In this document: positions 10,264 through 59,061 of the stretch, piece after piece
How positions within the stretch are numbered: the stretch's first letter is position 1
Layout: each line of letters starts with the position of its first letter
Source of the DNA: a virus
DNA length: 59,083 nt
Strand: one strand, 5' to 3'
IMG/VR virus record: IMGVR_UViG_3300042731_000588
Span: 1 to 59,083 of that record
The notes under the pieces: generated by a model
The model's input: only the letters and a program-made list of their open reading frames with translations
What the model was told of the DNA's origin: nothing
Databases searched by the model: none
Program-made: the position numbers and the translations under genes

Positions 10264-13200
10264 ATGGCTGCTAATTTTGAAGTAAAATTTATCGTAGACA
10301 GAGTATCTGCTAACTACAAGATACAAATCACTGATACGTCTACGGATTTCACGCTTGTAAAAGCAAACACCAAAATAACTTTTCCAGATGGTTATGTTCT
10401 AGAGAACACTGACTTATCTAATCCAGACATATCTAGTGCGGGAGGGAATGTCCAGAAGAACCTTAGACTAGATGTAAACAACAAGCCTGTAACTGGTGAT
10501 TATAAAATCAATTTTACAGGATATGATGCGAGTGATAATGAGTACAGCTCGCAGAAACAATTCAACTTTACTTTTAGCGAACCATCAATTCTTATCCAGG
10601 ATTTATCTGACTCAGGAATACCTGTAGTTAAATTTAAGGATATCACATCATGGACTCAAGCAAACTTTACTGCTAGTGCAACTACCAGAGAGTTTAATGT
10701 AGACTATCCGTCTACCTCTGCTGTTGATGGTCAATCAAAAACAGAATCAAATACAAACCTTTCTACTCCTTTAGAGATAGATATGGTAAACAGCCTTAAT
10801 TATTATGAAGGTGTTTACGATGTTACTCTTGCTTTAGATATTACTTATACTCATACTAACGGTTATTTATCTGTTCAGTATAAGAAAAACTCTACTCAAG
10901 ACTTTCGAATAAAAAGAACCCCTAGCCAAAGTGACTTACTAAATAAAATCAATCAATACAAAGAGAATATTGATGAGTATAAAGTCACTAGTCCAGATGT
11001 GTATGCTAGATATGCTGAGGAGTATGATAACGTACTCGCACTGTACTCGCATGCTGTATCTCGATATAAGTTGGGGATTGGAGATGGAGCACAAGACTCT
11101 ATAGAAGAGCTATTAGATTTAATAAACGACCAATCAGGACACGTATATCGCTCTACACCTATTACAGCATTCTCTATAGACGAGAATGACTTTGGAGCTA
11201 ATGCACTTATCACTAAGCTTAAATCAGAGGTAGGAACCTTTGACGAAGATGGAAACTTACAAACAATAGCTAAAGCATTTGCGGATGAAGTGTTCGAGGT
11301 AGAGGCAACAGACTTCAAAGCAGAAGCGAGTAAACTATCAACGCTACTCGCACAGTTTGGAACCTACGACCCTAGTACAGATACATTCTCATTCTTAGCT
11401 ACTGCGGATTACTTTGAACAAGTAAAGACGTATGCTGACGACAACTCAGCTTCAGCAGTTGCCTTAGATGTTCTGTTTGCTCAGTTCGGCACATACGATG
11501 CAGAGACAGAGACTTTCACGTTTAGCAGTACGGCAGATTATTTTAACGAAGTAAAAACATACGCAGACAATGATAAGGCTTCGGCAACAGCTCTTAGCAC
11601 CTTAACTTCTCAGTTTGGTACTTATGACCCCGCTTCAGATACATTTACTTTTAGCAGCACGTCTGACTACTTTAATGAAGTAAAGACGTATGCTGATAAT
11701 GATAAAGCTTCTGCACAGGCATTAAACACGCTTACCTCTCAGTTTGGTAGTTATGACCCAAACACAAACACATTTACCTTTAATAATACTGCTGATTATT
11801 TTGAAGAGGTTAAAACTTATGCGGATGAAAATTCAGCAGCTGCAAACAAAGTGTCTTCTATAGGCTCTTCATTTGGTAGCTTTGATGGTGACACTTTCAA
11901 TTTTAGTGAGGCAAAGATTACTCAAGAACTTAATACGTATACAGGATTAGATTTTTCTAACAGTCAGTACTTTATTGATATAGAGGCAGACATAGAATCT
12001 AAACCAATCGTTTTAAGACAAGATGCTGAGCCTGCCGTTACTTACGCTCCTGGCTCTTTATGGTATGATACTAATGACGATAATAAAGTATATGTTCTTG
12101 TAGACGGAGACCCAAAGGTATGGACGCTTACAGACGACTCTAGAATAGGAGCAACAGCAACTCACTTAACTACACTTACCTCAGCATTTGGTTCTTACGA
12201 TGCTGAGACTGGTTTTGAAATAGACACTACTGCTAATTACTTTGCAGAAGTAAAATCTTATGCAGACACTGATTCAGCAGCAGCTACAAAGATTGAGAAT
12301 CTAGGAGCTGAGTTAGTAACGTTCGATTCTAATGGAAATGTAACAGGAGTTGTGCTTAGTTCTAGCTTTAAGTCAGCTGTGGATAGTTTTGTTTCGGATG
12401 AAAACAATTCATCGTTAGCAACTAAAGTTGAAGGAATAAGAGTTGACTTAGAAGGTACGGATGGTAATGGAGGTTTAACAGCGAGCGTTTCAAGTAACTC
12501 TTCAGCTATTGTAGCTAAACCAGATGTATTTAGGCAAGACGATGCACCAGCAGTAACAGAGGCTGTAGGGTCTTTATGGTTTGATACTAATGATAATAAT
12601 AAAGCTTACGTTCTTGTAGCTGGAACTCCTAATGTGTGGACAGAAACAAGAGACCAGGGATTAATTTCAGACATCTCTGATAAGCCGTTTATATTTAGAC
12701 AAGATGACGAGCCTGCTACTTCGAATCCTGAAGGTTCTCTTTGGTATGACACTAACGATGGTAATAAACTATACGTTTTAATATCTACTACTTGGACTTT
12801 AACTCAGGATTCTGATATTGCTACAGCTCAATCTACAGCAGATGGAAGACCTAAAGTCTTCAGACAAGCTGAAGCTCCAAACACTACTGAACCAGAGTTT
12901 TCTGTATGGTATGATACGGATGACAACAATTTATCATACGTACTCATAGGTGATGGAGGAGACCCAGAGACTTTTACTTGGACAGAAACAGTAGATGGTA
13001 GAGTAACAGATTTACTCGCATTCGCAGAAGCAAGATACTCGCTCAATGTAGATGCCAATGGTGTAGTTACGGGATTGGAGTTATACTCAGCAAGCGGACC
13101 AAATACTACGGTATCAACCTTTAAGGTAACAGCAGATAAATTTATCATTAGAGAGTCTTCTACAGACTTTGTGCCATTCACTTTAGATGGTAGTCAGTTA

Positions 13201-16200
13201 AAGTTAGATGTGCCTTTAAATGGAGTCTCAGGTAGCTTCAGCGGTTCATTAACAGCAGCTACTGGTACATTCTCTGGAAATGTAGATGGAAATATAGATG
13301 GAACATCTGCATCTACAGTTAAGTCTAATGCAGCTGACGGAGCAACTGCAAAGGGAGTTACTGATAATTTAACTAGCGTAGTTGAAATCACAAGCAGTGA
13401 CATTGCTATTGTAAATACAGACGAGACTAAAGCATTTGATGATGCAGGTACTCCATTCTACGTAGATAGTAGTGGTGACTTTAGTTTAGGAGATAAGCTT
13501 AAATACGATAACTCTGAGAATCTTCTTACAATCAGTGGTGCTGTAACTATAGAGTCAGTATCTGGACTAACTAAGTCAGATGTAGGATTAGGAAACGTAG
13601 ATAATGATTCTACCGAAACTATACTTGGAGGCAACTTAACAGGTACAGTAAATAATGTTGCTGTCGATACCGTAACTACAGGAGCTGCTGCTGGTTCAGC
13701 TGCAAAAGGAGTTACAGACAATCTAACTTCAGTAGTGGCTATTACCTCTTCGGATATAGCGATTGTATTAGAAAATGAAACTAAGACATTCAATGACGAT
13801 GGTACTCCATTCTATGTTGACAACGCAGGTCAATTCAGTTTAGGAGACAAACTATCATACGACCCTACTACAAATACATTAAGTATTACAGGGGCAGTTA
13901 CTATTGAGTCGGTTTCTGGACTAGATAAATCGGATGTCGGATTAAGTAATGTAGATAATAATTCTACAGCTACTATACTTGCAGGAAATTTAACGGGCAC
14001 AGTAGATGGAACTGCTGCTGGAACAGTGAAGTCAGGAGCAGCTGACGGTGCGAGTGCTAAGGCAGAAACTGATAAACTAACCTCTGTTGTTAGTCTTACT
14101 AACTCAGATATAGCTATTGTTAATTCAGGAGAAACAAAAGCATTTGATGATGCAGGGACTCCTTTTTATGTAGATAACACAGGAGACTTTAGCTTAGGAG
14201 ATAAGCTTAAGTATGACAACTCTGAAAACCTACTAACCATTAGTGGAGCGGTAACTATCGAGTCAGTATCAGGACTTACTAAATCGGATGTAGGATTGTC
14301 AAACGTAGATAACACCTCCACAGCAGATATACTTGATGGAACCGCAGGTGACTTTACAGGAGATGTTACAGGAACAGTAGATGGTACTTCTGCAAGCACC
14401 GTTAAAACGGGTGCAGCAGACGGAGCAACCGCTAAAGGAGTTACAGATAATTTAGAGTCTAACGTTACACTTACTAGTACTAAGATATATCAAGGTACTG
14501 GTACTTTTAACAACTCTAATACTGGATTCTACCTAGACAATACAGGTCAGTTTAGCTTAAAAGACAAACTTTCTTTTGACGGAACCACTCTCTCAGTAGA
14601 TGGAGAGATAACCTCTACCTCTGGTAATATAGGGGGTTGGGAAATCAACTCAACAGAACTAAAATCACCAGCAGTAAGTAATGTAAATAGACTCAAGTTC
14701 TCTCCTACATCAGGATTCATAGTAAATGATGATGATAACAATACAGCTCTATTGGTAAATTACGGAGCTCTATCTAGCCTATCATCTACCACTACAGGTG
14801 TAACTTTTGCAGATGTATCAAATGCAGAGGTAGCTTCTTGGGATGAAACAGTTCAAGCAGGTAACACATTAATTAAAATACCCGCTTCTAACGAACGTTA
14901 TATATACAGCTCAAACTATTTAACAGCTTCTTTTGTTAATGACCCTCACGGAGGTTCCTACTCTTACGAGATATCAGTTGATGCTATATCTGGAGCTGTT
15001 GCTACTTTAACAGGCACTAGCGGTTATCTAAAGGCAACTTTAGCACTACATATACAGATAGCTACAGACACTAGTTTTAGCAATGTAATTAAAGACGTGG
15101 AGCTTTACAGAACAGATGTTACTGGAGCAACCACGATTACATTCTCAGGAGTATCAAATAAGGCAGTTTCGTTCTCTATATCAGATAGTGTTACCGATGT
15201 ATACTTAAGATTTTATTGGTATAGAATGTATGCTGTTGCTTACAACGACAGTATTACTTGGTCTCCAAAAACATTCAATGTATCAAGTGCAAATGCTAAT
15301 GACGATTTAGTATTCTTAACATATAACGGAACAACCGAATTAACAAACGAGGGGGTTCAAATTATTAATGACCCAACCACATACTTTAAAGTAGACAGGT
15401 CAAACTTTACTTCTGGTAATCCATACGTAGATATTGGTGGTGACGTTAAGGTTGATGGTGACTTAGAAGTTACAGGAAGTATTAATATCGTAGGTGATAT
15501 TGAAAACTCAGATGTTAGTGTGTCTAACCTAGCAGAAAGATTAGGTGAAATAAACACAGACATAACTGTTGGTGCTTCATCATCTGTAGATGTAACCTTC
15601 CCAGGAAACGTAACCTTTCAAGGTACAGTAACTGGAGGTGATGTTACTGTTTCTAATCTTGAAACAAGACTTGGAGAGATTGATAGCAATATCAATATCG
15701 GTCACTCAGCAGGTGTAACAATCACTATGCGAGAGAATTTAGTGGTTACTGGAGACTTAACGGTTCAAGGAAACACAACTACAGAAAATTCTACTCAGTT
15801 ACATATTTCCGATTCACTCATCCACTTAGCGGATGGTAATGAGAATAGTGATTCGATAGATATTGGATTTGTAGGTCACTACAGTCCAGATGGAGGAACT
15901 ACCAAACAACACGCTGGTATATTTAGAGATGCCGATAATGGTGAGTGGTATATATTTGACGAGTATGTAGATGCTAATCTAGATAGCGAATCCAACCCTA
16001 CAAATGTTGTAGATAGAACTGATTCAACGTTTAGTTTGGGGGTTGTAAATGTAGACTCCTTAAAAACAACTAGTAGTTCTACTATAGCAGGATTCACTTC
16101 TTCAGGAAACATCAAAGTAAATGATAATGTTAGAATAGATATTGGTACTGGAAGCGATTTAAGACTTTTACATAACGGAACAGGCTCTTATATTGATAAT

Positions 16201-19200
16201 TACACAGGTAACCTTACTATACGAAACCTTGCAGATAATCAAGATGTATACATTTCAAGCGATAATGGTAGTGGCGGAACAACGCAATACTTTAGAGCTA
16301 AAGGAGATGACGGTTCGGTTTACTTATTCCACTATGGTAACAAAAAGTTTGAAACCACAAGCTCAGGAGTTTCTATAACAGGAACACTTACAGCAACATC
16401 ACTTGTTAAAAGTGGTGGTACATCAAGTCAGTTTTTGAAAGCGGACGGTTCTGTAGATTCAAATACTTATTTAACAAGTAGTATTTCTTCTAATATATAC
16501 TTTTCTGATAATGCTAAAGCTTTATATGGTGCTGGTAATGATTTAGAAATATATCATAGTGGCACCCATTCTTTTATTCGCCAAGTAGGTACTGGAAATT
16601 TATACATAGACCAAGCAACAGACGATAAGAACATAATATTCAGAAATGATGATGGTAGTGGCGGATTAACTAATTACTTCCAAATAAATGGTGATGATGA
16701 AAAAAATATATTTTACAAAGAGGTACAGATAAATAAAGGCTTAACTGTAGATAACATAGACGGTGAGGGTGTAGGTTATGTTCAAATAGGTACAGTAGAT
16801 AACGATGCAGGAAACGGATATGTTAGAGGTAATATTTTATTTGGTAGAGATGTTGACCAAGTTACTTGGGATAGCACTAATGATGAATGGACATTTTTAG
16901 CAGGAGGTAGTAGTGATTTTTCTATGATTCTTCATGACGCGGGTGGATTAAGAATTTTTACCGCAGATGGTATTTCTACAACCACAACATATACAAATAC
17001 CGAATTTAGGGATGCATTTCAGGCTTTAACTATAGGTCAAGCAGGTAATGTCAATGTATTTAGGGGTGATTTACAAGTGGGTGGTACTACTGTCATTGAT
17101 TCAAACAGAAATCTTACTGCACAAACAGGTACTTTTAATAATGGAGGTCATGTAAAGAAAACAGGAACTTCACAGACCGCCGTGTTTACGATTGAGCAAT
17201 TAGCAGACGTAGGCTCATCTTTAGACTTACTTATTAAAAATTCTTACGACAGAGATGTAGGTATTAAGCTAGAAACAGCAGGTGGCTCTCATTATATATG
17301 GCAAGACTCTAACGGAGATGATTCTTTAATTATTTCAGCAGCTGGTAATAACAGAACGAATGATGCCACAATAATATTCGAACAGAGTCACGATGTAACC
17401 ATACCTAATGGAGACTTAGATGTTGCATCAGGAAGCGTTACTGCTAATTCTATTATTAAAGATGGCGGTACATCAAGTCAGTTCCTAAAGGCAGATGGTT
17501 CAGTAGATAGTAACACTTACGCTTTATCTAGTCATAATCATGATGACAGATACTACACAGAAACTGAATCTGATACTAGATATGGTAGAAAAGTATTTGG
17601 TACTAATTGGGGTGATACACCTGAAGCAAGATATATAAAAATTGAAGTGCCATTCATTTCAGGAAGTGGTGGTTCAGACATGTATTTCTTTGATGTATAT
17701 GGTTATAGAGATTATGGTCAATTAGATAGTCAGTTACATTATAGAGTTTATCTACACGCAAGAAGTAACGGCACTACTAGCAACTCCTTTAATATGGATG
17801 TTAAGGGTGTTAATGTAGCTGCCAACGAAGAATTTAAATTCGCTTATAAAGTAGTAGCATCTTCACCAACTGAAGTATATATAAATGTACTAGAGGATTA
17901 TTCAGGTATTCAAATCAATAGCATACCATTAAATGAAGGTATATTAAATAACATTGATGACCTTACTATTAGTTCTTCTGATACTGCACCTACTGGAACA
18001 ACAAGTATTATTCCTGCTGTTTATTTATCTACTACTGATTCTGTAGACGCTCAAACTTTAGATAATTTAGATTCAAGTCAATTCTTAAGAAGTGACGCTA
18101 ATGATACTGCCTCGGGAGATATAACATTTACAGGAGGTGTAACAATTACAGGGTCTACAGGAGATACTTATGACAGTCAATTAGTAATATCTGAGGATTC
18201 GCCAACTATCAAGTTAAATGACACTTCTACAGGTCATGATGATTTTTGGATTCATGTAAATAGTAATAATTTCTATATTTTAAAAGATGTAGATAATGAT
18301 GATACTTTTGAGACTCCACACCCCTTACAATTAGAGGCAGATACAAATATTGGATACTTGTTTGGAAATAGAATCTTTGCTGATAACTATCATCCTAACG
18401 CTGACAAATGGACTAATGCAAGAACATTAAGTCTCACAGGAGATGTAACAGGTAGTGTGTCATGGGATGGTTCTGCAAATGCTTCAATTACAGCTACAGT
18501 TGCAAACGATAGCCATACTCACGATGGGAGATATTATACGGAAACAGAAAGTGATAACAAATTCGCTCCTGTAAAAAGAGGTTCTGTAACTGTAACGAAA
18601 GATACTTATACGAGAGTTGCTCGTGTAGAGGGTAACAACCTATCCTCTGCAATTAGAATGACAGTTAATGGTACTACAGGAAGTGTTGTAGTGAATTGTC
18701 TTTCTGACATATCTGTAAACCACTCTGCAGACATTATAGTTTACTCTCAAGCTGGTAACTATACTACTTTAGATATCAGAATTATAAGCAACAATAACGA
18801 AGATTTTGATATCTATTTAAGCTATACAGGTGGTGCGAGTCAAGGAACGAGCTTTACTGCTGCGATAGAGATATTCCCTCTGAATAACGAAACAATCACT
18901 TTTAGCCCTACAGCTACTGTGTATTCAGGAGCTACATTTAATCATGCAGCTACTGCTGGTCAGATTAAGTGGGGACAATCAGGACAATCCCCTAATATTT
19001 ACTTAGGAGCTAACAAGGTATTCCACGAAGGAAATGATGGTGTAGGTTCTAATTTAAATGCAGATATGCTTGATGGTTTACACGCAAGCTCTTTTGTAAG
19101 AACCGACCAGTCAAGTACAATATCTGGAAATTTAACCGCTACAAATATGTATGTAGGCGGATACATTTACCATAATGGAGATACCAATACTTACATTCGG

Positions 19201-21474
19201 TTTGTAGGTGGAGATGATTTCCAAATCGTATCTGGAGGTAGGCAAGTACTTCGCATGGATGAAGGAACTGACCCTGACAAACTTGTGTTAGGGGATAGTT
19301 CTACATATACATACACCGATGGACGTATAGGTGTTAACACTTCAACCCCAACACAAGACCTTCATGTAGTAGGTAGTGCGTTGTTTGGAGAATCATCAGA
19401 TGTTACTGAAGCTGCTCCAGTAAAAATCAGAACGAGCAGTGATGGATTTATTGGTATGGTTCGTACAGGTGTTAGAACATGGGCACATAGAATAGGTTCT
19501 AATGGACACTACTACTTAAGAAATGTAGATGGTACTTATAACGTGCTTAATATTACTGATGATAATAAGGTGGGGATTGGTAAAGAACCTTCTTACCAAT
19601 TAGACGTAGCAGCTAGTATTAGAGCTGGAGATAATTTATATGTTGGAACAGGAGGCGGATATTTCTACAATGACTCAGGTTCAAGGGTTAGAATCAACCA
19701 AGACTTCTATACTAATAACAGTAATACTTACCTATATGCAACTAACCTTTATTTAGGTGCAAGTTCAGGAGATAATGTACAAGTTAGAGGTAATAGAATG
19801 TATGGTAATAATTGGGAGATTGATACTGATGGTTCAGCAGGATTTGGTACAACTTCAGCAGGGGCACAAGTACATATTGTAGATAATACTTTCCCACAAC
19901 TTAGAGTTAATGACGATACAGGTGGAGGAGAGGCAGGTATGCGTCTTCGTTCTTGGAATGGAACAATAGGACTTCACTCTGATATATTCTCTAAAGTAGG
20001 AAGCTCTAACGAAACTGGTTATCTAGGATTTAGAGTTCCTTGGAATGGTTATCAAAAACTAAGACTACATTCAAACGGTAGTTTAAGCTTAGGTATTCCT
20101 GGCAACGGACAAAACAACGGAGGTAGATACCTTTCTTTCGAAGGTAACACAGATGCTTCTGGAGAAGGCTCAGGAAGATTATTCTTTACAGAACACAACT
20201 CTACTACCGCTTCAATGGATAACTACGGTATGTCTATTGGATATCGTGGTGGAGGTACTACAGTAACTACAGCAGGAGGAAACTCTTGGACAGGACTATC
20301 TCAGATAGGTAATGGACAATGGGGTATGTGGGGTCATGATAATAGCACTGCAGGAGCTCTTATTATGTACGGTGATAGAGCAGGAACATTTGTTGATTTT
20401 GCAGGAAACAATATTCAAGGCATAAACAATGCTTATGTAGCAAACGCAATATACCACACAGGAGACACTAATACTTATCTACAGTTCCATAATAACGACC
20501 AATTTAGAGTAGTTATTGCAGGAGGGGAAGTTACTGAATGGGGTGCTAACTATATGAAGATGAGTGATAATGATGTCATTCGTTTAGGTTCAGGCTCTGA
20601 TTTTAGAATGTGGCATGATGGGACAAATACTGTGTTCAGAAATTATAATCATGCTCAGGGAAATATATATTGGCAAGGAGAAGACACAGAAGGTACTAAC
20701 CATGGCTTATTGTACATGATAAACAATGTGTCTCGACCTTATTTAAGGTTATTTGAAAATGGTACTGAAAGGCTTAGAACTATAGACGGTGGAGTAACAG
20801 TTTATGGTAGAATGCAGCTTGATGATTCTAATACTAAACTTTTAAAAGGTAGTGGTAACTCTCTTAATATAACTACAAACTCAGGTAATGTAGAGATAGG
20901 ACCGATGAATACTTCGTATTGTCATCTTCAAACAGATAGAGGGAAATTTTATTTTAATAAACAAATCACAGTAAATAGTGGAATTGTTGAGTCATACGAT
21001 GAAGATTTACAATTAAGAAGAGCAGGTAGTGCAGATAGAATACAAGTTGCAAGTACATCTATAAGGTTCTTCTTAGATAGTGCTGAGGATATGAGATTAG
21101 AGAATGATGGCGACCTTCATGTAGAAGGAGATGTTATTGCATACTCTTCAACTATTTCAGATATTAGATTAAAAGATGAAGTAAAAACAATAGACAATGC
21201 ACTCGGTAAAATAAAATCTTTACGAGGAGTTGAATATGTTTGGAATAAAGGTCACAGAGAAGGACAGAAGGATTTAGGTCTTATTGCTCAAGAAGTAGAA
21301 CAAGTGCTTCCTGAGATTGTAAGAGAGAAGAAAATGCCTTTAATGGATGACAGCGATAAAGTATACAAGACTGTAGATTACGAGAAAATAGTTGGTGTGC
21401 TTATTGAAGCAGTTAAAGAACAACAAGAACAGATTGATGAACTTAAATCAAGATTAAATGGCGGTTCCAACTAG
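10264..21474 (+). CDS. Giant tail fibre/spike with C-terminal S74 chaperone domain
   Basis: The 3736-residue protein is the likely host-contact fibre. The N-terminal part has immunoglobulin-like beta structure. Repeat families follow at about residues 355-530 (a roughly 42-residue unit, F-G-T-Y-D ... V-K-T-Y-A-D), 580-920 (four units with S-L-W-Y-D-T-N-D) and 1020-1440 (four units with S-D-V-G-L ... N-V-D-N). A long stretch of fibre-type beta repeats comes next, with twice-used G-G-T-S-S-Q-F-L-K-A-D-G-S. The last 105 residues, from about 3630 (S-D-I-R-L-K-D ... L-G-L-I-A-Q-E-V), are the peptidase S74 chaperone, which trimerises the fibre and cleaves itself off. The final residues are a coiled coil. 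It overlaps the next gene by 17 bp. Confidence 0.9.
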   Translation: MAANFEVKFIVDRVSANYKIQITDTSTDFTLVKANTKITFPDGYVLENTDLSNPDISSAGGNVQKNLRLDVNNKPVTGDYKINFTGYDASDNEYSSQKQFNFTFSEPSILIQDLSDSGIPVVKFKDITSWTQANFTASATTREFNVDYPSTSAVDGQSKTESNTNLSTPLEIDMVNSLNYYEGVYDVTLALDITYTHTNGYLSVQYKKNSTQDFRIKRTPSQSDLLNKINQYKENIDEYKVTSPDVYARYAEEYDNVLALYSHAVSRYKLGIGDGAQDSIEELLDLINDQSGHVYRSTPITAFSIDENDFGANALITKLKSEVGTFDEDGNLQTIAKAFADEVFEVEATDFKAEASKLSTLLAQFGTYDPSTDTFSFLATADYFEQVKTYADDNSASAVALDVLFAQFGTYDAETETFTFSSTADYFNEVKTYADNDKASATALSTLTSQFGTYDPASDTFTFSSTSDYFNEVKTYADNDKASAQALNTLTSQFGSYDPNTNTFTFNNTADYFEEVKTYADENSAAANKVSSIGSSFGSFDGDTFNFSEAKITQELNTYTGLDFSNSQYFIDIEADIESKPIVLRQDAEPAVTYAPGSLWYDTNDDNKVYVLVDGDPKVWTLTDDSRIGATATHLTTLTSAFGSYDAETGFEIDTTANYFAEVKSYADTDSAAATKIENLGAELVTFDSNGNVTGVVLSSSFKSAVDSFVSDENNSSLATKVEGIRVDLEGTDGNGGLTASVSSNSSAIVAKPDVFRQDDAPAVTEAVGSLWFDTNDNNKAYVLVAGTPNVWTETRDQGLISDISDKPFIFRQDDEPATSNPEGSLWYDTNDGNKLYVLISTTWTLTQDSDIATAQSTADGRPKVFRQAEAPNTTEPEFSVWYDTDDNNLSYVLIGDGGDPETFTWTETVDGRVTDLLAFAEARYSLNVDANGVVTGLELYSASGPNTTVSTFKVTADKFIIRESSTDFVPFTLDGSQLKLDVPLNGVSGSFSGSLTAATGTFSGNVDGNIDGTSASTVKSNAADGATAKGVTDNLTSVVEITSSDIAIVNTDETKAFDDAGTPFYVDSSGDFSLGDKLKYDNSENLLTISGAVTIESVSGLTKSDVGLGNVDNDSTETILGGNLTGTVNNVAVDTVTTGAAAGSAAKGVTDNLTSVVAITSSDIAIVLENETKTFNDDGTPFYVDNAGQFSLGDKLSYDPTTNTLSITGAVTIESVSGLDKSDVGLSNVDNNSTATILAGNLTGTVDGTAAGTVKSGAADGASAKAETDKLTSVVSLTNSDIAIVNSGETKAFDDAGTPFYVDNTGDFSLGDKLKYDNSENLLTISGAVTIESVSGLTKSDVGLSNVDNTSTADILDGTAGDFTGDVTGTVDGTSASTVKTGAADGATAKGVTDNLESNVTLTSTKIYQGTGTFNNSNTGFYLDNTGQFSLKDKLSFDGTTLSVDGEITSTSGNIGGWEINSTELKSPAVSNVNRLKFSPTSGFIVNDDDNNTALLVNYGALSSLSSTTTGVTFADVSNAEVASWDETVQAGNTLIKIPASNERYIYSSNYLTASFVNDPHGGSYSYEISVDAISGAVATLTGTSGYLKATLALHIQIATDTSFSNVIKDVELYRTDVTGATTITFSGVSNKAVSFSISDSVTDVYLRFYWYRMYAVAYNDSITWSPKTFNVSSANANDDLVFLTYNGTTELTNEGVQIINDPTTYFKVDRSNFTSGNPYVDIGGDVKVDGDLEVTGSINIVGDIENSDVSVSNLAERLGEINTDITVGASSSVDVTFPGNVTFQGTVTGGDVTVSNLETRLGEIDSNINIGHSAGVTITMRENLVVTGDLTVQGNTTTENSTQLHISDSLIHLADGNENSDSIDIGFVGHYSPDGGTTKQHAGIFRDADNGEWYIFDEYVDANLDSESNPTNVVDRTDSTFSLGVVNVDSLKTTSSSTIAGFTSSGNIKVNDNVRIDIGTGSDLRLLHNGTGSYIDNYTGNLTIRNLADNQDVYISSDNGSGGTTQYFRAKGDDGSVYLFHYGNKKFETTSSGVSITGTLTATSLVKSGGTSSQFLKADGSVDSNTYLTSSISSNIYFSDNAKALYGAGNDLEIYHSGTHSFIRQVGTGNLYIDQATDDKNIIFRNDDGSGGLTNYFQINGDDEKNIFYKEVQINKGLTVDNIDGEGVGYVQIGTVDNDAGNGYVRGNILFGRDVDQVTWDSTNDEWTFLAGGSSDFSMILHDAGGLRIFTADGISTTTTYTNTEFRDAFQALTIGQAGNVNVFRGDLQVGGTTVIDSNRNLTAQTGTFNNGGHVKKTGTSQTAVFTIEQLADVGSSLDLLIKNSYDRDVGIKLETAGGSHYIWQDSNGDDSLIISAAGNNRTNDATIIFEQSHDVTIPNGDLDVASGSVTANSIIKDGGTSSQFLKADGSVDSNTYALSSHNHDDRYYTETESDTRYGRKVFGTNWGDTPEARYIKIEVPFISGSGGSDMYFFDVYGYRDYGQLDSQLHYRVYLHARSNGTTSNSFNMDVKGVNVAANEEFKFAYKVVASSPTEVYINVLEDYSGIQINSIPLNEGILNNIDDLTISSSDTAPTGTTSIIPAVYLSTTDSVDAQTLDNLDSSQFLRSDANDTASGDITFTGGVTITGSTGDTYDSQLVISEDSPTIKLNDTSTGHDDFWIHVNSNNFYILKDVDNDDTFETPHPLQLEADTNIGYLFGNRIFADNYHPNADKWTNARTLSLTGDVTGSVSWDGSANASITATVANDSHTHDGRYYTETESDNKFAPVKRGSVTVTKDTYTRVARVEGNNLSSAIRMTVNGTTGSVVVNCLSDISVNHSADIIVYSQAGNYTTLDIRIISNNNEDFDIYLSYTGGASQGTSFTAAIEIFPLNNETITFSPTATVYSGATFNHAATAGQIKWGQSGQSPNIYLGANKVFHEGNDGVGSNLNADMLDGLHASSFVRTDQSSTISGNLTATNMYVGGYIYHNGDTNTYIRFVGGDDFQIVSGGRQVLRMDEGTDPDKLVLGDSSTYTYTDGRIGVNTSTPTQDLHVVGSALFGESSDVTEAAPVKIRTSSDGFIGMVRTGVRTWAHRIGSNGHYYLRNVDGTYNVLNITDDNKVGIGKEPSYQLDVAASIRAGDNLYVGTGGGYFYNDSGSRVRINQDFYTNNSNTYLYATNLYLGASSGDNVQVRGNRMYGNNWEIDTDGSAGFGTTSAGAQVHIVDNTFPQLRVNDDTGGGEAGMRLRSWNGTIGLHSDIFSKVGSSNETGYLGFRVPWNGYQKLRLHSNGSLSLGIPGNGQNNGGRYLSFEGNTDASGEGSGRLFFTEHNSTTASMDNYGMSIGYRGGGTTVTTAGGNSWTGLSQIGNGQWGMWGHDNSTAGALIMYGDRAGTFVDFAGNNIQGINNAYVANAIYHTGDTNTYLQFHNNDQFRVVIAGGEVTEWGANYMKMSDNDVIRLGSGSDFRMWHDGTNTVFRNYNHAQGNIYWQGEDTEGTNHGLLYMINNVSRPYLRLFENGTERLRTIDGGVTVYGRMQLDDSNTKLLKGSGNSLNITTNSGNVEIGPMNTSYCHLQTDRGKFYFNKQITVNSGIVESYDEDLQLRRAGSADRIQVASTSIRFFLDSAEDMRLENDGDLHVEGDVIAYSSTISDIRLKDEVKTIDNALGKIKSLRGVEYVWNKGHREGQKDLGLIAQEVEQVLPEIVREKKMPLMDDSDKVYKTVDYEKIVGVLIEAVKEQQEQIDELKSRLNGGSN
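11335..12300 (+). repeat. Coding tandem repeat, about 125-bp unit, in the tail fibre
   Basis: At least four consecutive units of about 42 codons share F-G-T/S-Y-D, a Phe/Ser/Thr strand, A/S-D-Y-F and V-K-T-Y-A-D, from about 11335 to 11850. A further diverged unit lies at about 12160-12300. Short DNA stretches are nearly identical between neighbouring units. This is internal gene duplication, likely building a repetitive shaft. Confidence 0.75.
12005..13000 (+). repeat. Four dispersed fibre repeats with an S-L-W-Y-D-T-N-D core
   Basis: Four copies of a roughly 40-codon unit (R-Q-D ... S-L-W-Y-D-T-N-D ... Y-V-L) occur at about 12010, 12530, 12700 and 12860. They alternate with other fibre sequence. 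The Trp/Tyr/Asp-rich core may be a small carbohydrate- or glycan-contacting module, although that is a guess. Confidence 0.7.
13310..14590 (+). repeat. Coding tandem repeat, about 350-bp unit, in the tail fibre
   Basis: Three full and one partial copy of a unit of about 110-120 codons, beginning with K-G-V-T-D-N-L and ending in S-D-V-G-L ... N-V-D-N, lie head to tail. Stretches such as those near 13440-13560 and 14140-14270 are almost the same at the DNA level, which indicates recent duplication or recombination. Confidence 0.75.
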
Positions 21475-22198: not shown

Positions 22199-22220
22199 TA
22201 GACTTTTAAAATAAATAATC

Positions 22221-22619: not shown

Positions 22620-22939
22620 AAGATTCAGAAAAAAAGAAACTAGCTAAGTACGGACTAAAAGGTCTTAACAAACCAAAGCGAACTCCATCACATCCCACTA
22701 AGAAGGGGATTGTTGCAGTACGAGACGGAGACAAGATAAAAGTTATCCGATTCGGAGCACAAGGTATGGGTCATAACTATAGTCCAGAAGCACGTAAATC
22801 TTTCAAAGCAAGACACGCTTCTAATATCAAAAAAGGTAAGACTAGTGCAGCCTACTGGGCTGATAAATTCTTTTGGGCTGGTAAAGGGGGATTGAAGAAG
22901 AGTCCACCGAAGAGCCAGAAACACAAGAAAGGAATGTAA
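22616..22939 (+). CDS. Small basic protein, putative virion nucleic-acid-binding protein
   Basis: A 107-residue Lys-rich protein with a central I-R-F-G-A-Q-G-M (44-51) and a later S-F-K-A-R-H-A ... W-A-D-K-F-F-W segment (62-88). This pattern occurs in small proteins of unknown function in marine phages. It forms a pair with the preceding basic gene. A role in DNA condensation or packaging is inferred from charge only. Confidence 0.55.
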   Translation: MKDSEKKKLAKYGLKGLNKPKRTPSHPTKKGIVAVRDGDKIKVIRFGAQGMGHNYSPEARKSFKARHASNIKKGKTSAAYWADKFFWAGKGGLKKSPPKSQKHKKGM

Positions 22940-45219: not shown

Positions 45220-45487
45220 GAAGGATTTACTTATTAAGATAGCGGAGAGTCGGAGTAATAACTATCCGCAAGAACCAATAGTATTACTAGATGGATTCGA
45301 GAAAGCTTTCTTGGGTGTATGTAAGGATAGGGGATTGTTTCAAAGAGCAATCTATGACTATTGGAAATGTATAGAAGTACTCGTACATGATGACGAGATA
45401 GAGTTTGATGATGCCCTTGATTGGATGGAAGTGTGGGAAGAGGAAGACTTAGGAGAAGGTGGACCTATCTTTATGAAAACGGTTTAG
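45203..45487 (+). CDS. Small conserved phage protein of 94 aa
   Basis: The sequence D-G-F-E-K-A-F-L-G-V ... A-I-Y-D-Y-W-K-C-I-E-V-L followed by an acidic W-M-E-V-W-E-E-E and ending G-G-P-I-F resembles a family of small proteins widespread in phages, of unknown function. It is the last rightward gene. It overlaps the first convergent leftward gene by 17 bp with no terminator between them. Confidence 0.65.
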   Translation: MKNLSKKDLLIKIAESRSNNYPQEPIVLLDGFEKAFLGVCKDRGLFQRAIYDYWKCIEVLVHDDEIEFDDALDWMEVWEEEDLGEGGPIFMKTV

Positions 45488-46851: not shown

Positions 46852-47149
46852 TCCAAAGTTCCTCTTTGGAGAAGGTATCGTTTCTATCCCTGCGAGCAAT
46901 CATAAGTAGTATAATGTATCCTGCTAGGTCTAGTAATGAGTCTTCGGTTGCAGCATCAATCCCCTTGTTCTTAATACGTGCGAGCTTGTCGTCCATTCGA
47001 GCTCGCAAGTTATCTTCAGCAGTTCCTCTGGAGAAGATATTAAGGGGCTTCAAAGCTGAATCCCCATAACTCTTGTTCTTCCGAAGAAGCATATCTACTA
47101 TCTCCTTTCCTACTAAAGTAATCTTTTGTGCGTTGGTAATTTTTGACAT
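46835..47149 (-). CDS. Nucleotide modification-associated (Nmad1/DUF1599-like) protein
   Basis: The 104-residue, all-helical protein has the pattern L-L-R-K-N-K-S-Y-G-D-S-A, then M-D-D-K-L-A-R-I and E-D-S-L-L-D-L-A-G-Y, seen in the DUF1599/Nmad1 family associated with nucleotide metabolism or modification. Start 47149 leaves 19 bp after the upstream gene; the earlier ATG at 47179 would overlap it. No modifying enzyme is visible nearby, so the partner is unknown. Confidence 0.6.
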   Translation of the reverse strand: MSKITNAQKITLVGKEIVDMLLRKNKSYGDSALKPLNIFSRGTAEDNLRARMDDKLARIKNKGIDAATEDSLLDLAGYIILLMIARRDRNDTFSKEELWNDEHD

Positions 47150-49906: not shown

Positions 49907-50229
49907 ATTTCAATCTTTCTTAAAAGCTTAACATCGTTTTTATGGATACCAATACAGAGTCTGTTACTAAACTCCTTGAACTTCTTATCGGTCAAATCAA
50001 AATGCAATATCATTAGTTCGATAGGTACATTGAAATTGTAACACAAAAAGAAGATGACCAAGTGAGGCATAGTCTTTACTCCTTCGATGGATTTGGATGC
50101 AACAAAAGAATCTTCGGGGGTTGGGTCAAGAACAAAGTTCTTCTTAACCGATGAGAGTATCAACTCAAATGTATGTACCTCTCTTTTATCAAAGTCTTCT
50201 CTGTTACTTCTTCCCAATACCATCGTCAT
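49876..50229 (-). CDS. Small protein with degenerate DnaA domain IV-like helices
   Basis: The 117-residue protein has helical residues about 55-112 that loosely follow the layout of DnaA domain IV (H-L-V-I-F-F-L-C-Y-N ... L-T-D-K-K-F-K-E-F-S-N-R), but the H-x-T-V signature is absent. A related, well-preserved domain is encoded at 1521. It overlaps both neighbours. The similarity is weak and may be fortuitous. Confidence 0.4.
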   Translation of the reverse strand: MTMVLGRSNREDFDKREVHTFELILSSVKKNFVLDPTPEDSFVASKSIEGVKTMPHLVIFFLCYNFNVPIELMILHFDLTDKKFKEFSNRLCIGIHKNDVKLLRKIEICKSYIDRKL

Positions 50230-50410
50230 TCTGTATTGTCTCTAAAAACGCTTGCACCGATTCCTTTGTAAACATAAGTGGCTTACGATTAGGTAATGGT
50301 TTTAAAACTCCTTGGTCTCTATATATCTTCAACTGATACTTAGACCATCCTAGTGACTCGCACAACTCATCGTGTGTGTAAATCAACTTCTCTACAGCTC
50401 TTTCGCTCAT
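50204..50410 (-). CDS. MerR/excisionase-like HTH protein
   Basis: The 68-residue protein has the HTH_17 layout: Y-T-H-D-E-L-C-E-S-L-G-W-S-K-Y-Q-L (11-27), then R-D-Q-G-V-L-K-P-L (31-39) and a final helix (T-K-E-S-V-Q-A-F-L). Such proteins act as excisionases or small regulators. Because a tyrosine recombinase is encoded in the same arm, it could control excision or transcription. It overlaps the YqaJ gene by 4 bp. Confidence 0.65.
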   Translation of the reverse strand: MSERAVEKLIYTHDELCESLGWSKYQLKIYRDQGVLKPLPNRKPLMFTKESVQAFLETIQNDDGIGKK

Positions 50411-51486
50411 TTCACTTTTATAATTAATCTATTGTTATACTTAATAACTCCACCATCATCTGGCAAATCTATTTGAGATACCTCAAGTTTGTTTAGGAAC
50501 TCTCTCGCTTTGTTACCATACTTAGTTTTCTCTCGCTTAAGAGTACCCATCTGCTTGTTTATCTCGCTATACTTACGTGCTACTTCTAACATTTCCTCCG
50601 TGCCTAAAGCACGAGAGGTAACATCTAGTTTGTCCAAATAATTTTTATTGATGTACTGCTGATAGTTATCAGAGTCATCGGCTTCGGGTCTTATCTCATC
50701 AAGACCTCGCTTCATTTGTGACTCGCTTGAAGAATTACGGATAATATCATCTCCCTCCTGCAGTAGCAGGTTGAACTCGTATGCTCTAGTCAACATCTCG
50801 TTAACGATGTCCTCGTTGTATTCGATGTGATATGCGTGCAAGTCCATTCCCGCAACGAGAGAAAAGATATAAGCATCGATGTCTGGATTCATTTCCATAT
50901 ACTGAACCATGTATGCGAGTACTTGATAAATGTAACCGATAGGTAACCCCTTAGTTCCATCAGCCTCATTACCCCACTTGTCGTATACGTGCTTGTTCAT
51001 TGTCTTAATCTCGATGATAGACTCGGGGATTGGAATCTTCCCCTGGACCTCAACTAAATCAACAACTTCTTCCTCGCTCGCATCAATACTAATACCATCC
51101 ACGTTAGCAAACATGAAAGGGATGTTCTCGTTCTGAATTGTGTAGTCAAAAGCAATGTGGTTTCTAACCTTTTTGCCATCAGCAAAATTAGATAGGTAAC
51201 TATTTGCATTATCTACATCGTAGTATTGAGATGACTCTCTTACGATGTTCTCCATTCTGTTTCCCCAAAAGACCGCCTTGTTATGAGTAAGATTGGCTTT
51301 ATCTATTAAGCCTAACTTTTGGTCGAACAACATGGGTAGTGATGCGTACTCGTTTACTCCCATGATTACAGACATATCAGAACCACCTAGTGCTAACCCA
51401 AAACTGTTTCTGATTTCTAGCCATTCATCGTAGCTAAGGTCTCTGTATGGTACAAGAGTATAGCTACCTATCTTTATTTTCTTCAT
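50407..51486 (-). CDS. YqaJ-like exonuclease (phage recombinase)
   Basis: The 359-residue protein matches the lambda exonuclease/YqaJ fold: G-G-S-D-M-S-V-I-M-G (34-43), D130 in A-N-V-D-G-I-S, E159 and K161 in I-I-E-I-K-T, and Gln188. It would resect double-strand ends to give single strands for annealing. The ERF-like gene directly upstream (4-bp overlap) provides the partner annealing protein. Confidence 0.8.
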   Translation of the reverse strand: MKKIKIGSYTLVPYRDLSYDEWLEIRNSFGLALGGSDMSVIMGVNEYASLPMLFDQKLGLIDKANLTHNKAVFWGNRMENIVRESSQYYDVDNANSYLSNFADGKKVRNHIAFDYTIQNENIPFMFANVDGISIDASEEEVVDLVEVQGKIPIPESIIEIKTMNKHVYDKWGNEADGTKGLPIGYIYQVLAYMVQYMEMNPDIDAYIFSLVAGMDLHAYHIEYNEDIVNEMLTRAYEFNLLLQEGDDIIRNSSSESQMKRGLDEIRPEADDSDNYQQYINKNYLDKLDVTSRALGTEEMLEVARKYSEINKQMGTLKREKTKYGNKAREFLNKLEVSQIDLPDDGGVIKYNNRLIIKVK

Positions 51487-51896
51487 TGCTTTCTCGTGAC
51501 TGCTTGTTGTGGATTGAACTTAACGCTAGATGGTTTCTGTTGTTGTTGCTGAGACATAGCATTCAATACTTCCTCTGCACTCGCAACAGATGTGTCAACT
51601 CCAATCCCCAGATTAGAAAGAACTCTTCCCCATGCTGAGGTCTCGCAGTTCTCAATGTATGATGTCTTATTAATCATACTCGCATTACGAAACTCTTGAG
51701 CATGAGCGTCTGCTCTCACTACTCCATCGGTGTCCTCCACCCAAGCGTGTACTACCACAACTTCTTCGTTCAAGGTTTTAATCTCTGAACGTAGTGTCCA
51801 ATTCTTGTACTCTTCTGCGGTGCGGAAGTGTTTAATCTTCTCTTGCACCATAACATAAGGTTTCCCCTTTATGTTAACTGTTTTTAGTTTTGCCAT
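51483..51896 (-). CDS. ERF-like single-strand annealing protein
   Basis: The 137-residue protein contains the typical Y-I-E-N-C-E-T-S-A-W-G-R-V-L-S-N-L-G-I-G segment (about 80-99) followed by S-V-A-S-A-E-E-V, as in ERF/Sak-type annealing proteins and relatives. The C terminus is Gln-rich and disordered. Paired with the YqaJ exonuclease, it would perform Red-type recombination. Confidence 0.65.
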   Translation of the reverse strand: MAKLKTVNIKGKPYVMVQEKIKHFRTAEEYKNWTLRSEIKTLNEEVVVVHAWVEDTDGVVRADAHAQEFRNASMINKTSYIENCETSAWGRVLSNLGIGVDTSVASAEEVLNAMSQQQQQKPSSVKFNPQQAVTRKQ

Positions 51897-52227: not shown

Positions 52228-53250
52228 TTATTCAAAGATGGAAGCGTAGATATCGTACTGCGATTCCTTGTGGATGTCACTCACCTTTGCATATCTGTTG
52301 GATAAAGTAAGGATGTTGTTGTGTCCACTGAAACTCATCACAGTTTCTAAGTCGATACCATTCTCAATCATCTGCGTAATGAAGGTTGCTCGCACCTTGT
52401 GTGGTGTAATCATCTCGTAGAGTTTAACCTTCTTAGCTTTTACATATCCGTTAGCCATGGGGGTTGTCTTGGTAACGTTCATGTGATAGTCCTCCATAGT
52501 CATAAGGAAGTCCTTAAAGTTATTACGCATAGTACCATCTGTATAACCACGTAGTATTAAGTCGCTATCTGTTTCCATAGACAACAAGATGTTTACTATG
52601 TCGTTCGGTAGCTTAATAGTAACGGGGGCAGACTTGGTCTTTCTGTTTTGATAGGTTAGATAACTAGGATGCGAGTAGTTCCCGAAAGAAATATTCTTTG
52701 AGTATCTGAGCTCCATCAAATCACGTAGCCTCGCAGAAGTGTAGGCACAAAGAAGAAATGTAAGAGCTCCGAGTTGTTGTTGTTTTGTGTACTCATCGCT
52801 CGAACAAACATCCTTTGCGTGTTTCACTGTTTTCTTGAACAGCTCCGTGTTAATCACGGTGGGTATTCCTCTGCTCGCTTTGTACCTAAAGAACTTTTTA
52901 CCTGTCTTTACTCCGAACTCGTCTTCAATGCGAACGAGTACGTGTTTCATGAAGTCAAGTCTGTGCTTGAGAGCGTTCTCGCTAAGGTGTCTTGACTCTT
53001 TCTTGATTCTGATTGCGAGCCGTTCCCATTTAGAGTTACGCTCTTGATACTTCTGTCTGTCTTTCATCGCATCTAATCCAGACAAATCGTAATCGTAGAT
53101 GTTGATGTCTTTACTTGAGAGTATCTCAATCAAGTTTTTCGAGATGCTTCTGTACGTCTTGTTAGTCATCTCGCTTCTGATTTTGCCACGAGTCGTAGAG
53201 TATTCTGACTCTGCGAACTCGTTGATACAAGTGGAAAGTAATTTTTTCAT
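52228..53250 (-). CDS. Tyrosine recombinase/integrase
   Basis: The 340-residue protein has the full catalytic set: R174 in T-S-A-R-L-R-D-L, H284 and R287 in T-P-H-K-V-R-A-T-F, H310 in F-S-G-H, and Y320 in S-N-R-Y. An N-terminal helical core-binding domain spans about 1-125. It could integrate the phage or resolve genome multimers. It has its own promoter (53286-53317) and lies after a terminator, so it is transcribed separately. No repressor and no clear attachment site were found. Confidence 0.9.
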   Translation of the reverse strand: MKKLLSTCINEFAESEYSTTRGKIRSEMTNKTYRSISKNLIEILSSKDINIYDYDLSGLDAMKDRQKYQERNSKWERLAIRIKKESRHLSENALKHRLDFMKHVLVRIEDEFGVKTGKKFFRYKASRGIPTVINTELFKKTVKHAKDVCSSDEYTKQQQLGALTFLLCAYTSARLRDLMELRYSKNISFGNYSHPSYLTYQNRKTKSAPVTIKLPNDIVNILLSMETDSDLILRGYTDGTMRNNFKDFLMTMEDYHMNVTKTTPMANGYVKAKKVKLYEMITPHKVRATFITQMIENGIDLETVMSFSGHNNILTLSNRYAKVSDIHKESQYDIYASIFE

Positions 53251-54113: not shown

Positions 54114-54130
54114 AGCTTAGGGGATTGAGA

Positions 54131-55914: not shown

Positions 55915-57876
55915 TTATGCGAGTACACTCGCTACTTTAGTTCGCACTACCTGTGAAAACTTCTTGACTACCTGTTTTCTTAGCACTGCTGAATCTAGAT
56001 TGTTTCGGTAGATGTCATCGAACGATGCCTCTGCCCACTCGTCAAAGAACTGATTGCCTCGACTTCCGTAGTCGGTACCCACTCCGATTTGAATCGGAAA
56101 GAAGTTCTTCGATTTAGCGTAGCGAACTGAATATTTCAAATAGTCTCTATCGCTTGGCTCACCATCCGAGATGCAAACGAGAATGCATGGCTCTTGAGTA
56201 TGCGAGCGAACATGGTCAACTAGACTAACGATTTGGTGTCCATCGTCATTGGCTCCACCTGCGACCATACCTCCAAAACGCTTTCTAAACTCGCCTTTCA
56301 GTTTTGGCGAGTAGAACTCCTCGGTGCGATGGTCTGAACCTAAACTTCTAAGACCATACATCCAAAGGTCAACGTTTGGCGAGTTACGAAACGTCTGATA
56401 GAATAACATAGCGAAGTCTCTCGCTATCTCTATCTTCTCGTCACCCATTGAACCCGATTGGTCAATGAGGATTACAAGATTGAGTTTCTCTTGAGTCATG
56501 CGAGGCTTGCGAGCGAATACGTCTTGTCTTCCGATGTGTGCCCCGACTACGTTTTTGATACGACCACTTCGCTGATTTCGAACGATACGATTGCGAGTCT
56601 CGAACTGCAATGCCATCGCTTGCTTAAGCGTACCCATCAAAGGCTTTATAGCGTTATGGTGTTCCTCGAATTTCTCGCTTGGTAAGTATCTGCTATACCC
56701 ATCGTCAACGATTGGCTTGCAAATATGACCTTCGCACTTCACGAATGAACCACGCTCTGTGATTTCATCGAAATTGTGATTCTTAGATAACTCTGCGAAG
56801 TTTCTCGCATCGTCATCGCTTCGAGCGTCTAGAGTCTCGTTAAGGCTATTACCTCTACCGAATGGATTGAATTGAGTCTCTTTCGCTTCCTCCATTTGCT
56901 CTCTCGATTCTATGATGGTTTTCTCTAACTCTTCGATTTCTTTTTGAGCGTTCTCATGGATTTCGTTCTGCTCCGCATACGAGTCTGCCTCGCTCATCTC
57001 CGTATCTCTATCATCACGAACTTTCCATCTCTTGTCGCTCGCATCTGACATCTTCTTCTCTGCTTCCTTAGCTTTCTCTTTAGCCTCTTGTGAAACTTGC
57101 TCTGCTGACTTGCCATCTCCCATTGGTAAAACCTTGATGATATCTAGGCTTGCTTGTAGGATGTGCTCGTAGTCTTTCTTAGCAGTTAGTCTCGTCTTGT
57201 TGTAGAGCGTATCGATTCGCTCGCATACGAACTCGTAGAAGTCTTGCTGAGCATCGATAAGTTCTTGCGGTATTGACGATGGATAGCGAACGATGTATAG
57301 CAGTAGTACTAGAGCGTTCTGAATTTCACCTTGGGGATTGAAGTCAACCACCTTAGAGAAGTAACGTCTCTTTACTAAAGCTAAATCATCTGCAACCCCT
57401 CCGAACTTCTTGATTAGATTAGTCTCGATACGCTCGTCTTCTAGGATGTTTGCGATGTCTAAGAAGACTTGAGTATTGGTAAGATTCACCTCATCACGTG
57501 TAAGGCTCTTCTCCCATCGTTTCTTGGCTTGTTGGCAAGTGTACATGATGTGTGCTAGTTCATGGCTTGCTAAGCCTTTAGCGATGTCTACTTTCTGCTC
57601 GAGCGTAAAGTTATTATCGTGGATGTAGTCAAGACCTACCCAAATGCTTTTTAAGTCCGTATACGAGCCGTTCGCATCGAAGTTAATAGGCACTCTTGGA
57701 TAGCCTAGAGAAACGGCTCTGTGTCGCATCTGTGAATAAATGAGTTTCAATGCCTCATCTACCCCTCCGATAGACTTGCCTCTTAGTACAAATTCTGTGG
57801 TTCCTTTTGACCACTTGATAGACTTCTTGTTTCTAGTTATGAAGTCTCTACTTCTGTTGTTGATTACGTCTTTCAT
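55915..57876 (-). CDS. VWA-domain protein with HExxH metallopeptidase-like motif (CobT-like)
   Basis: The 653-residue protein contains H-E-L-A-H (105-109) with a downstream N-I-L-E-D-E-R-I-E (143-151), the pattern of zinc metallopeptidase-like domains fused to VWA. A charged helical region follows (about 250-335). The C-terminal VWA domain has the MIDAS motif D-Q-S-G-S (472-476). Such proteins work with MoxR/CobS-type AAA+ ATPases, and one is encoded directly upstream (21-bp gap). Together they could act as a metal-dependent remodelling or chaperone machine. Target unknown. Confidence 0.8.
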   Translation of the reverse strand: MKDVINNRSRDFITRNKKSIKWSKGTTEFVLRGKSIGGVDEALKLIYSQMRHRAVSLGYPRVPINFDANGSYTDLKSIWVGLDYIHDNNFTLEQKVDIAKGLASHELAHIMYTCQQAKKRWEKSLTRDEVNLTNTQVFLDIANILEDERIETNLIKKFGGVADDLALVKRRYFSKVVDFNPQGEIQNALVLLLYIVRYPSSIPQELIDAQQDFYEFVCERIDTLYNKTRLTAKKDYEHILQASLDIIKVLPMGDGKSAEQVSQEAKEKAKEAEKKMSDASDKRWKVRDDRDTEMSEADSYAEQNEIHENAQKEIEELEKTIIESREQMEEAKETQFNPFGRGNSLNETLDARSDDDARNFAELSKNHNFDEITERGSFVKCEGHICKPIVDDGYSRYLPSEKFEEHHNAIKPLMGTLKQAMALQFETRNRIVRNQRSGRIKNVVGAHIGRQDVFARKPRMTQEKLNLVILIDQSGSMGDEKIEIARDFAMLFYQTFRNSPNVDLWMYGLRSLGSDHRTEEFYSPKLKGEFRKRFGGMVAGGANDDGHQIVSLVDHVRSHTQEPCILVCISDGEPSDRDYLKYSVRYAKSKNFFPIQIGVGTDYGSRGNQFFDEWAEASFDDIYRNNLDSAVLRKQVVKKFSQVVRTKVASVLA

Positions 57877-57897
57877 CTCGTAAAATATTTAGGTTAA

Positions 57898-59061
57898 TTA
57901 TTGAGTTCTGATTAAGTCACGAATAGACATCTGCTCATCGATTTGGAACCCTCCGATAAATGCATTTTCTAATGCATCCTCGAGCGAGAACCCGAACGCT
58001 ATCTGCTCGCTCGCTATGAATAGTTCCCGAAGTGACACTGAACGAGTCAAGTCTCCACTAGAGGCTTGTTGACGTATCGTCTTAGCGATACCCGTAATGC
58101 GAGTAGCATCTGCCTTGCTGATACCATCACGTCTCGTTAGGATGTCAACTTCTACGTCTTGTGGTGCATAGTCGATGTTAATCACATAGAAACGATTCCT
58201 AAATGCCTCATCCATCACTTGAGTACCCGTAAAGTTCGCTCCCTCATTTGCCGTAGCAATTAGGAACGCCTCGCATGGTACGTCTTCACCATGGGGATTG
58301 ATAAGGACTCGTCTATGGTCTAATAAAGGGAACAAGATGTTATTTGCTCCTACTGGTGAACGAGACACTTCGTCTAGTAGAACTATCTGCTCTTGTGCTA
58401 TAGCCTCGCTAAACTTAGATGGCTCAAATGAAGTATTGCCGTCTTTCAGTTCACGTTTACCAATGAATCCCTCGCTCGCATCTTCCATTGCCGAGCAGTC
58501 AACCGAATAAACTCCTAGACCTAACCTTGAGCCAATGACTCGTACTAGGTCTGTTTTACCCGTTCCACTCGCTCCCGTTAAAAGGATTGGCTTGTTGGTC
58601 TTAAAGGCAAATAAAATCTGCTTCCATACCTCGTCTGATACGTAGTAGCCGTCATGCTCTACGCTTGGCTTAGCGTACTTCTGAATAGCCTCTTGGATGT
58701 TGCTCGCATCAATTACACTAGAGCCTCGTCTTGGCTTGTCTGCTGATAGCTGAACGTTATCCATTGCCGAGCGTATCTCTGCTTGGATGATATCCCGTAG
58801 GGATGACACATCAAACGTAGGTGTAGCCGTAGGCTTTAGTGCTTTAGGCTTGCTCGCTTTGACTTGGGGATTGGTATCTATCTGCCCTAATGAATTACCA
58901 TCATGGTCATAGACACTAATGCCATTACGTAGTAGCTTCTTTACTCCCTCTTTCATAGAGATGCGAGTAGTAAATAAACCATGTGCCTCTAAGGCACTTT
59001 TGATTGAGTCATGTTGAACTCTTGAACCATTGATTTCGGTGTAAATAATAATTGCTTTCAT
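57898..59061 (-). CDS. MoxR/CobS-like AAA+ ATPase
   Basis: The 387-residue protein has Walker A G-A-S-G-T-G-K-T (163-170), Walker B V-L-L-D-E (227-231), sensor 1 A-T-A-N (269-272) and arginine residues in D-E-A-F-R-N-R-F (284-291). An N-terminal region of about 130 residues precedes the AAA core. It is paired with the VWA/HExxH gene, as in MoxR-VWA systems. Its leader closely matches that of gene 164-397. If the window is circular, genes 397-164 and 145-5 lie just upstream in the same operon. Confidence 0.85.
   Translation of the reverse strand: MKAIIIYTEINGSRVQHDSIKSALEAHGLFTTRISMKEGVKKLLRNGISVYDHDGNSLGQIDTNPQVKASKPKALKPTATPTFDVSSLRDIIQAEIRSAMDNVQLSADKPRRGSSVIDASNIQEAIQKYAKPSVEHDGYYVSDEVWKQILFAFKTNKPILLTGASGTGKTDLVRVIGSRLGLGVYSVDCSAMEDASEGFIGKRELKDGNTSFEPSKFSEAIAQEQIVLLDEVSRSPVGANNILFPLLDHRRVLINPHGEDVPCEAFLIATANEGANFTGTQVMDEAFRNRFYVINIDYAPQDVEVDILTRRDGISKADATRITGIAKTIRQQASSGDLTRSVSLRELFIASEQIAFGFSLEDALENAFIGGFQIDEQMSIRDLIRTQ

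Follow-up and report, generated by a model that had tools for sequence, protein, structure and literature searches.

A strand-polar DNA word, SGGGRTTG, recurs throughout a viral record of 59,083 nucleotides (IMG/VR record IMGVR_UViG_3300042731_000588; the whole stretch analysed, hereafter the window). Because its enrichment exceeds both chance and protein coding, the DNA itself is read by some enzyme. The word is selected across a clade of phages and is biased, genome-wide, to the coding strand of the terminase gene, with the other orientation also enriched. We tentatively favour the reading that SGGGRTTG is a Chi-like polar signal acting on an end-processing nuclease of the host or of the phage.

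Results

The window carries a phage gene set that includes terminase, portal, head protein, primase-helicase, RusA-like resolvase, YqaJ exonuclease and tyrosine integrase. The portal and terminase are 23–35% identical to proteins of Flavobacterium, Cellulophaga, Tenacibaculum and Maribacter phages, which makes these phages its nearest known relatives; they infect Bacteroidota, and the host of the window phage therefore probably belongs to that phylum too. Genes are directed rightward up to ~45.5 kb and leftward beyond, and the GC skew switches sign together with gene direction. The large terminase gene (2574..4574, +; phrog_6681, E 1.6e-89) has the word-carrying strand as its coding strand. 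A YqaJ/lambda-exonuclease-type recombination nuclease (50407..51486, −; phrog_434; PF09588, E 3.4e-15) is a candidate reader of the word. It is adjoined by a small conserved protein (51483..51896, −), which had no significant match in the PDB and which, judging from its position and an ETSAxGRxLxxLGIG-like stretch, is possibly the annealing partner of the exonuclease. The window also contains two giant genes (10264-21474, 3736 aa, containing repeats of 129 and 354 nt; 32560-41595, 3011 aa) and a phage-encoded MoxR-type AAA ATPase beside a VWA-domain protein (55915-59061, −).

An earlier note on this DNA had reported the octamer GGGGATTG 22 times on the plus strand and six times on the minus strand, and had put the chance expectation at roughly 0.5 per strand. 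The counts and all its coordinates were exact, and an order-2 Markov model gave expectations of 0.30 (+) and 0.22 (−), nowhere near the observed numbers. The octamer ranks first among the over-represented octamers of the window, with an enrichment of ~70-fold on the plus strand. In 40 order-2 simulated genomes, octamers with an expectation below 1 never exceeded seven copies, and GGGGATTG itself never exceeded one.

The plus-strand copies lie at 11073..11080, 19572..19579, 22705..22712, 22887..22894, 26448..26455, 29333..29340, 29808..29815, 31010..31017, 31855..31862, 33453..33460, 34794..34801, 36162..36169, 38180..38187, 40476..40483, 41659..41666, 45330..45337, 45799..45806, 51025..51032, 54120..54127, 57333..57340, 58293..58300 and 58866..58873; the one at 54120 is intergenic, and those at 45799, 51025, 57333, 58293 and 58866 belong to the leftward arm. 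The minus-strand copies are at 18985..18992 (reading CAATCCCC on the plus strand), 34654..34661, 35653..35660, 37990..37997, 46957..46964 and 51602..51609.

A full explanation by protein sequence, which would have refuted the earlier note's reading, does not hold. Genes contain 21 (+) and 6 (−) copies, as against 0.33 and 0.22 in synonymous-codon shuffles that preserve proteins and codon usage. The sites occupy all three frames, in sense and antisense coding, with one site between genes, and the peptides encoded at them are Gly-Ile, Gly-Leu, Gly-Asp, Gln-Ser-Pro, Asn-Pro and Ile-Pro. Their flanks have no common sequence, so the octamer does not belong to any longer repeat. A literature search for GGGGATTG returned only primers and unrelated uses.

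Almost all one-mismatch neighbours of GGGGATTG are not enriched, whereas CGGGATTG (6 on plus, 2 on minus) and GGGGGTTG (7 on plus, none on minus) are strongly enriched and polar; therefore, the selected word is the degenerate SGGGRTTG and not GGGGATTG alone. CGGGATTG occurs at 5181..5188, 7142..7149, 13070..13077, 25182..25189, 27077..27084 and 48810..48817 on the plus strand, and at 25719..25726 and 32991..32998 on the minus strand. GGGGGTTG is found at 6147..6154, 10222..10229, 14632..14639, 16038..16045, 24419..24426, 50116..50123 and 52459..52466, all on plus, and CGGGGTTG once, at 34232..34239 (+). Taken over the whole window, SGGGRTTG amounts to 36 plus- and 8 minus-strand sites (P=0.001 for the strand bias, given the share expected on each strand), and within genes to 34 and 8, as compared with 0.93 and 0.68 in the protein-preserving synonymous-codon shuffles. 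The minus-strand orientation is itself enriched about tenfold (8 vs ~0.7–0.8, P about 2e-6).

The earlier assertion that the bias follows the DNA strand rather than gene direction is borne out by the leftward arm, where SGGGRTTG is found 9 times on plus and 2 times on minus (P=0.03). It had also been stated that the first 11 kb contains none; this holds for the exact octamer but not for the word, as variants sit at 5181, 6147, 7142 and 10222. A gradient from the terminase end, which the empty first 11 kb would have implied, was rejected, since it disappears once the variants are counted. The plus-strand sites show no departure from uniformity around the circularised genome (KS P=0.90), and their spacing (mean 1.6 kb, CV 0.68) is more even than random with a P of 0.009, a result that is only suggestive, being one among several spacing tests.

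Six further contigs of the clade (G408, G409, G410, G001, G002 and G411) all carry SGGGRTTG, and in all six the polarity is the same relative to the terminase or other aligned genes. G408 is ~99% identical to the window and has every site within its coverage in common with it. G409 is 94% identical to the window, and at the nucleotide level G410 is about 79% and G001, G002 and G411 about 60–68% identical to it; in these divergent relatives (about 60–79%) most sites are at different positions, with G001 sharing 3 of 11 alignable sites and G410 2 of 5. Common to G001, G002 and G411 are the sites at 41659 and 25719, the one at 7142 is common to G001 and G002, 45330 to G410, 45799 to G409, and 48810 to both G409 and G410; the site at 51025 is GGGGGTTG in G410. 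In the relatives, CGGGATTG is as frequent as GGGGATTG, and G001 has roughly half the number of sites. Word and polarity persist while positions turn over, so it is the word and not the position that is conserved, a signature of selection acting on the word.

Outside the clade, the more distant relatives (Cellulophaga, Flavobacterium and Tenacibaculum phages) have 0 or 1 copy. A paired-word scan of viral contigs, which returned mostly chance pairs, found no other phage group with the word, and scans for the exonuclease and for the integrase matched only the near-identical G408. The contig G422, with 9 SGGGATTG in 80 kb, was set aside as not clearly enriched.

Strand-polar words other than SGGGRTTG occur in further phages. 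The octamer CACTATCA is strand-polar in Cellulophaga phage Calle_1 (L005/L364), phi38:1 (L363) and G421 (L365-L368), with ratios of 18:1, 13:1 and 9:0; in Calle_1 and phi38:1 it often lies just upstream of early genes, preceded by A-rich DNA, and is possibly a regulatory motif. In the phage contig G420 (L369-L371), nine polar copies of CAAGTCCG are clustered within 10 kb (15949-25850).

The window shows extreme, simultaneous avoidance of many palindromes, far below the synonymous-codon expectation. There is no GATC, CCGG, GGCC or GCGC and a single CGCG, where shuffling synonymous codons in the genes gives expectations of 189, 36, 25, 49 and 39, respectively; GAATTC and CATATG are likewise lacking. 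Relatives avoid overlapping yet different sets. CATG, for example, is missing from G410 (L138, 1-10479; 0 vs 36 expected) and present 115 times in the window, and therefore the avoided palindromes differ between close relatives. A second enriched word, GCGAG/CTCGC, has 88/104 copies in the window against about 25 each. It is ~4–5-fold enriched in genes, in all frames and about equally on both strands (non-polar), is densest at 40–59 kb, and its enrichment is limited to the window's subclade (G408, G409 and G410, not G001/G002/G411).

No host carrying the word emerged from the genome collections. Prophages of the clade were not found there, and terminase-based prophage searches returned only relatives of 24–44% identity, without dense words. 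Among ~900 Bacteroidia genomes counted, none had SGGGRTTG at Chi-like density or enrichment. The highest densities reached about one per 8 kb, mostly in GC-rich genomes where checked, and the composition-corrected observed/expected ratios of the checked top genomes, which are rough figures from small samples of each genome, were mostly 1–2 and at most about 3.6. Several Flavobacteriales genomes stood far above a reversed-pattern control; they were rejected as hosts, as their counts fit their composition (57–60% GC), and this control misleads in GC-rich genomes. The G220 chromosome (7.5 Mb, 674 copies) was likewise rejected, showing no enrichment over Markov in the sampled part. As a separate observation, terminases of the Bacteroidota-phage type occur in MAGs labelled Saccharibacteria, Taylorbacteria, Woesearchaeota, Euryarchaeota, Pacearchaeota and Aenigmatarchaeota (L097, L099, L101, L105, L110, L111 and L114), one of them in a record titled chromosome (CP070801.1), which reflects either misbinning or unusual hosts.

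Discussion

That SGGGRTTG is a functional polar DNA word, as the earlier note held, is well supported by an enrichment that proteins and codon usage do not explain, by the clade-wide retention of word and polarity at shifted positions, and by the common degeneracy. Among the functions that note had offered, Chi is the best analogy, though not proven, a methylation signal is unlikely, and a role in packaging or in marking replication direction is a possibility. Any mechanism has to satisfy three constraints, namely a polarity fixed to the strand regardless of transcription, an enriched minor orientation, and degeneracy, and a Chi-like signal would explain all three. In such a scheme, terminase or restriction cuts would give a helicase-nuclease or exonuclease an end from which to enter the phage DNA; on meeting SGGGRTTG in the productive orientation the enzyme would stop degrading, and the DNA would then be passed to recombination, so that the phage genome survives. 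The word would be a true Chi if a host RecBCD/AddAB-type enzyme reads it; alternatively, the reader could be the YqaJ-type exonuclease that the phage itself encodes. Which enzyme reads the word, in which direction it moves and what the phage gains are all inferences. The lambda cos/Chi rule is the basis for the expected orientation of such a word relative to the terminase cut, and the observed position on the terL coding strand is what this rule would predict for an enzyme that enters at the end left behind by terminase and moves from there in the direction of terL.

Phages with a recombinase and without a RecBCD inhibitor over-represent Chi, with a median observed/expected of 2.5 (PMC3784561), and the window phage has the YqaJ exonuclease and no recognised RecBCD inhibitor. 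In addition, the loss of five palindromes suggests that the phage often meets restriction cuts and that end protection would pay. The Chi-like reading gains circumstantial support from this, because a phage under restriction pressure would profit from such protection.

There are counterpoints. A Chi word should mark the host, yet none of the ~900 Bacteroidia genomes has it at Chi-like density or enrichment; the absence of the word from the distant relatives on Cellulophaga, Flavobacterium and Tenacibaculum, and from other phage groups scanned, also speaks against the Chi-like model. It is conceivable, though somewhat doubtful, that SGGGRTTG serves some uncharacterised lineage of Bacteroidota as its Chi-type signal, or else is a self-Chi read by the phage-encoded YqaJ exonuclease, the latter avoiding the problem of the missing host word. 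Pausing of this exonuclease at SGGGRTTG would be, for now, pure conjecture. A literature search found no published Chi for Bacteroidota, and to our knowledge either a Bacteroidota-lineage Chi or a phage-exonuclease self-Chi would be the first of its kind. If such a reading is true, the phage genomes alone reveal the word.

Instead, a phage nicking system might cut one and the same strand at every copy of the word, producing programmed single-strand interruptions of the kind present in Pseudomonas phage tf, T5 and phiKMV-like phages, but we regard this as unlikely. Phage tf has 14 nicks in TACTRTGMC, all on one strand (PMC3517423), and the strand-polar motif is common to 60 related phages (PMC11780129). 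Like SGGGRTTG, the tf motif is clade-specific and slightly degenerate, keeps its polarity irrespective of gene direction, and has a favoured variant that shifts between relatives. A one-strand nick motif would thus explain the fixed polarity and the degeneracy but not the enriched minor orientation (8 of 44 sites are on minus, where tf has 0 on the other strand), which argues against a strict tf/T5-type system; so do the few positions shared with G001 and G410, where tf relatives have similar positions, and the lack of a recognised nicking enzyme among the window genes. Start sites for lagging-strand primer synthesis, used by the phage primase-helicase in unidirectional (rolling-circle) replication, are a poorer candidate still. 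The phage does encode its own primase-helicase, the fairly even plus-strand spacing is near Okazaki-fragment length, and the G-run with its short box on the 3' side is reminiscent of T7 primase sites. However, known primase sites are 3–5 bases long, G001 makes do with roughly half the number, this model leaves the minus-strand enrichment unexplained, and the spacing result is one of several.

Equally improbable is that a temperate phage, integrating in a fixed orientation, has adopted a chromosome-polarity signal of its host (KOPS or another of the AIMS). The density of the word, one per 1.6 kb on plus, is far above that of known KOPS, no chromosome of the ~900 Bacteroidia is enriched, and the collections held no prophage of the clade. 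In favour are the tyrosine integrase, the G-rich word, the single genome-wide polarity that would fit a fixed prophage orientation, and the abundance of KOPS in Salmonella and E. coli prophages in the permissive orientation, as stated in PMC5993296. A restriction or methylation target is unlikely: phages avoid such sites rather than accumulate them, and this one shows extreme palindrome avoidance while enriching the word. That SGGGRTTG has no function and simply results from coding, codon use, composition or inherited repeats is hardly credible: many of the 28 GGGGATTG sites do encode Gly-Ile in the same frame, but the shuffles leave about one copy per strand in genes (0.9/0.7), all frames are used, the flanks are unrelated and site positions change from one relative to the next.

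What phage polar words do, the tf and T5 nick motifs among them, has been an open question for decades, and this clade offers a precise, strongly selected and testable word with relatives at several distances.

Comparison with known systems

The KOPS/AIMS octamers are polar, G-rich words of replicons, as is SGGGRTTG, but they are chromosomal, and we found no chromosome in which SGGGRTTG is enriched. The motifs of tf, Rembedalsseter and relatives (TACTRTGMC), of T5 and of phiKMV-like phages are similarly polar and clade-specific with little regard to gene direction; they differ in that the tf motif keeps to one strand and to similar positions in relatives, whereas SGGGRTTG has 18% of its sites on the opposite strand and most of its positions change. 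Lambda exonuclease belongs to the same YqaJ Pfam family as the phage exonuclease. It pauses strand-specifically at GGCGATTCT, with the core GGCGA (PMC7496540), a sequence-dependent exonuclease stop with a G-run-GATT look similar to that of the phage word. The corresponding core in the phage word is GGGGA, and GGCGATTCT is not known as a repeated genome-wide word.

Chi of lambdoid phages and Enterobacteriaceae, read by RecBCD, has a different sequence, the phage density is far above that typical of Chi, and no host genome enriched in SGGGRTTG was found. Nevertheless, known Chi variants are G-rich, degenerate octamers (PMC8022716), as is SGGGRTTG; in bacteria both orientations of Chi are enriched and one is favoured over the whole replicon, the same pattern as here; and both words are over-represented in phages that have a recombinase and lack an inhibitor.
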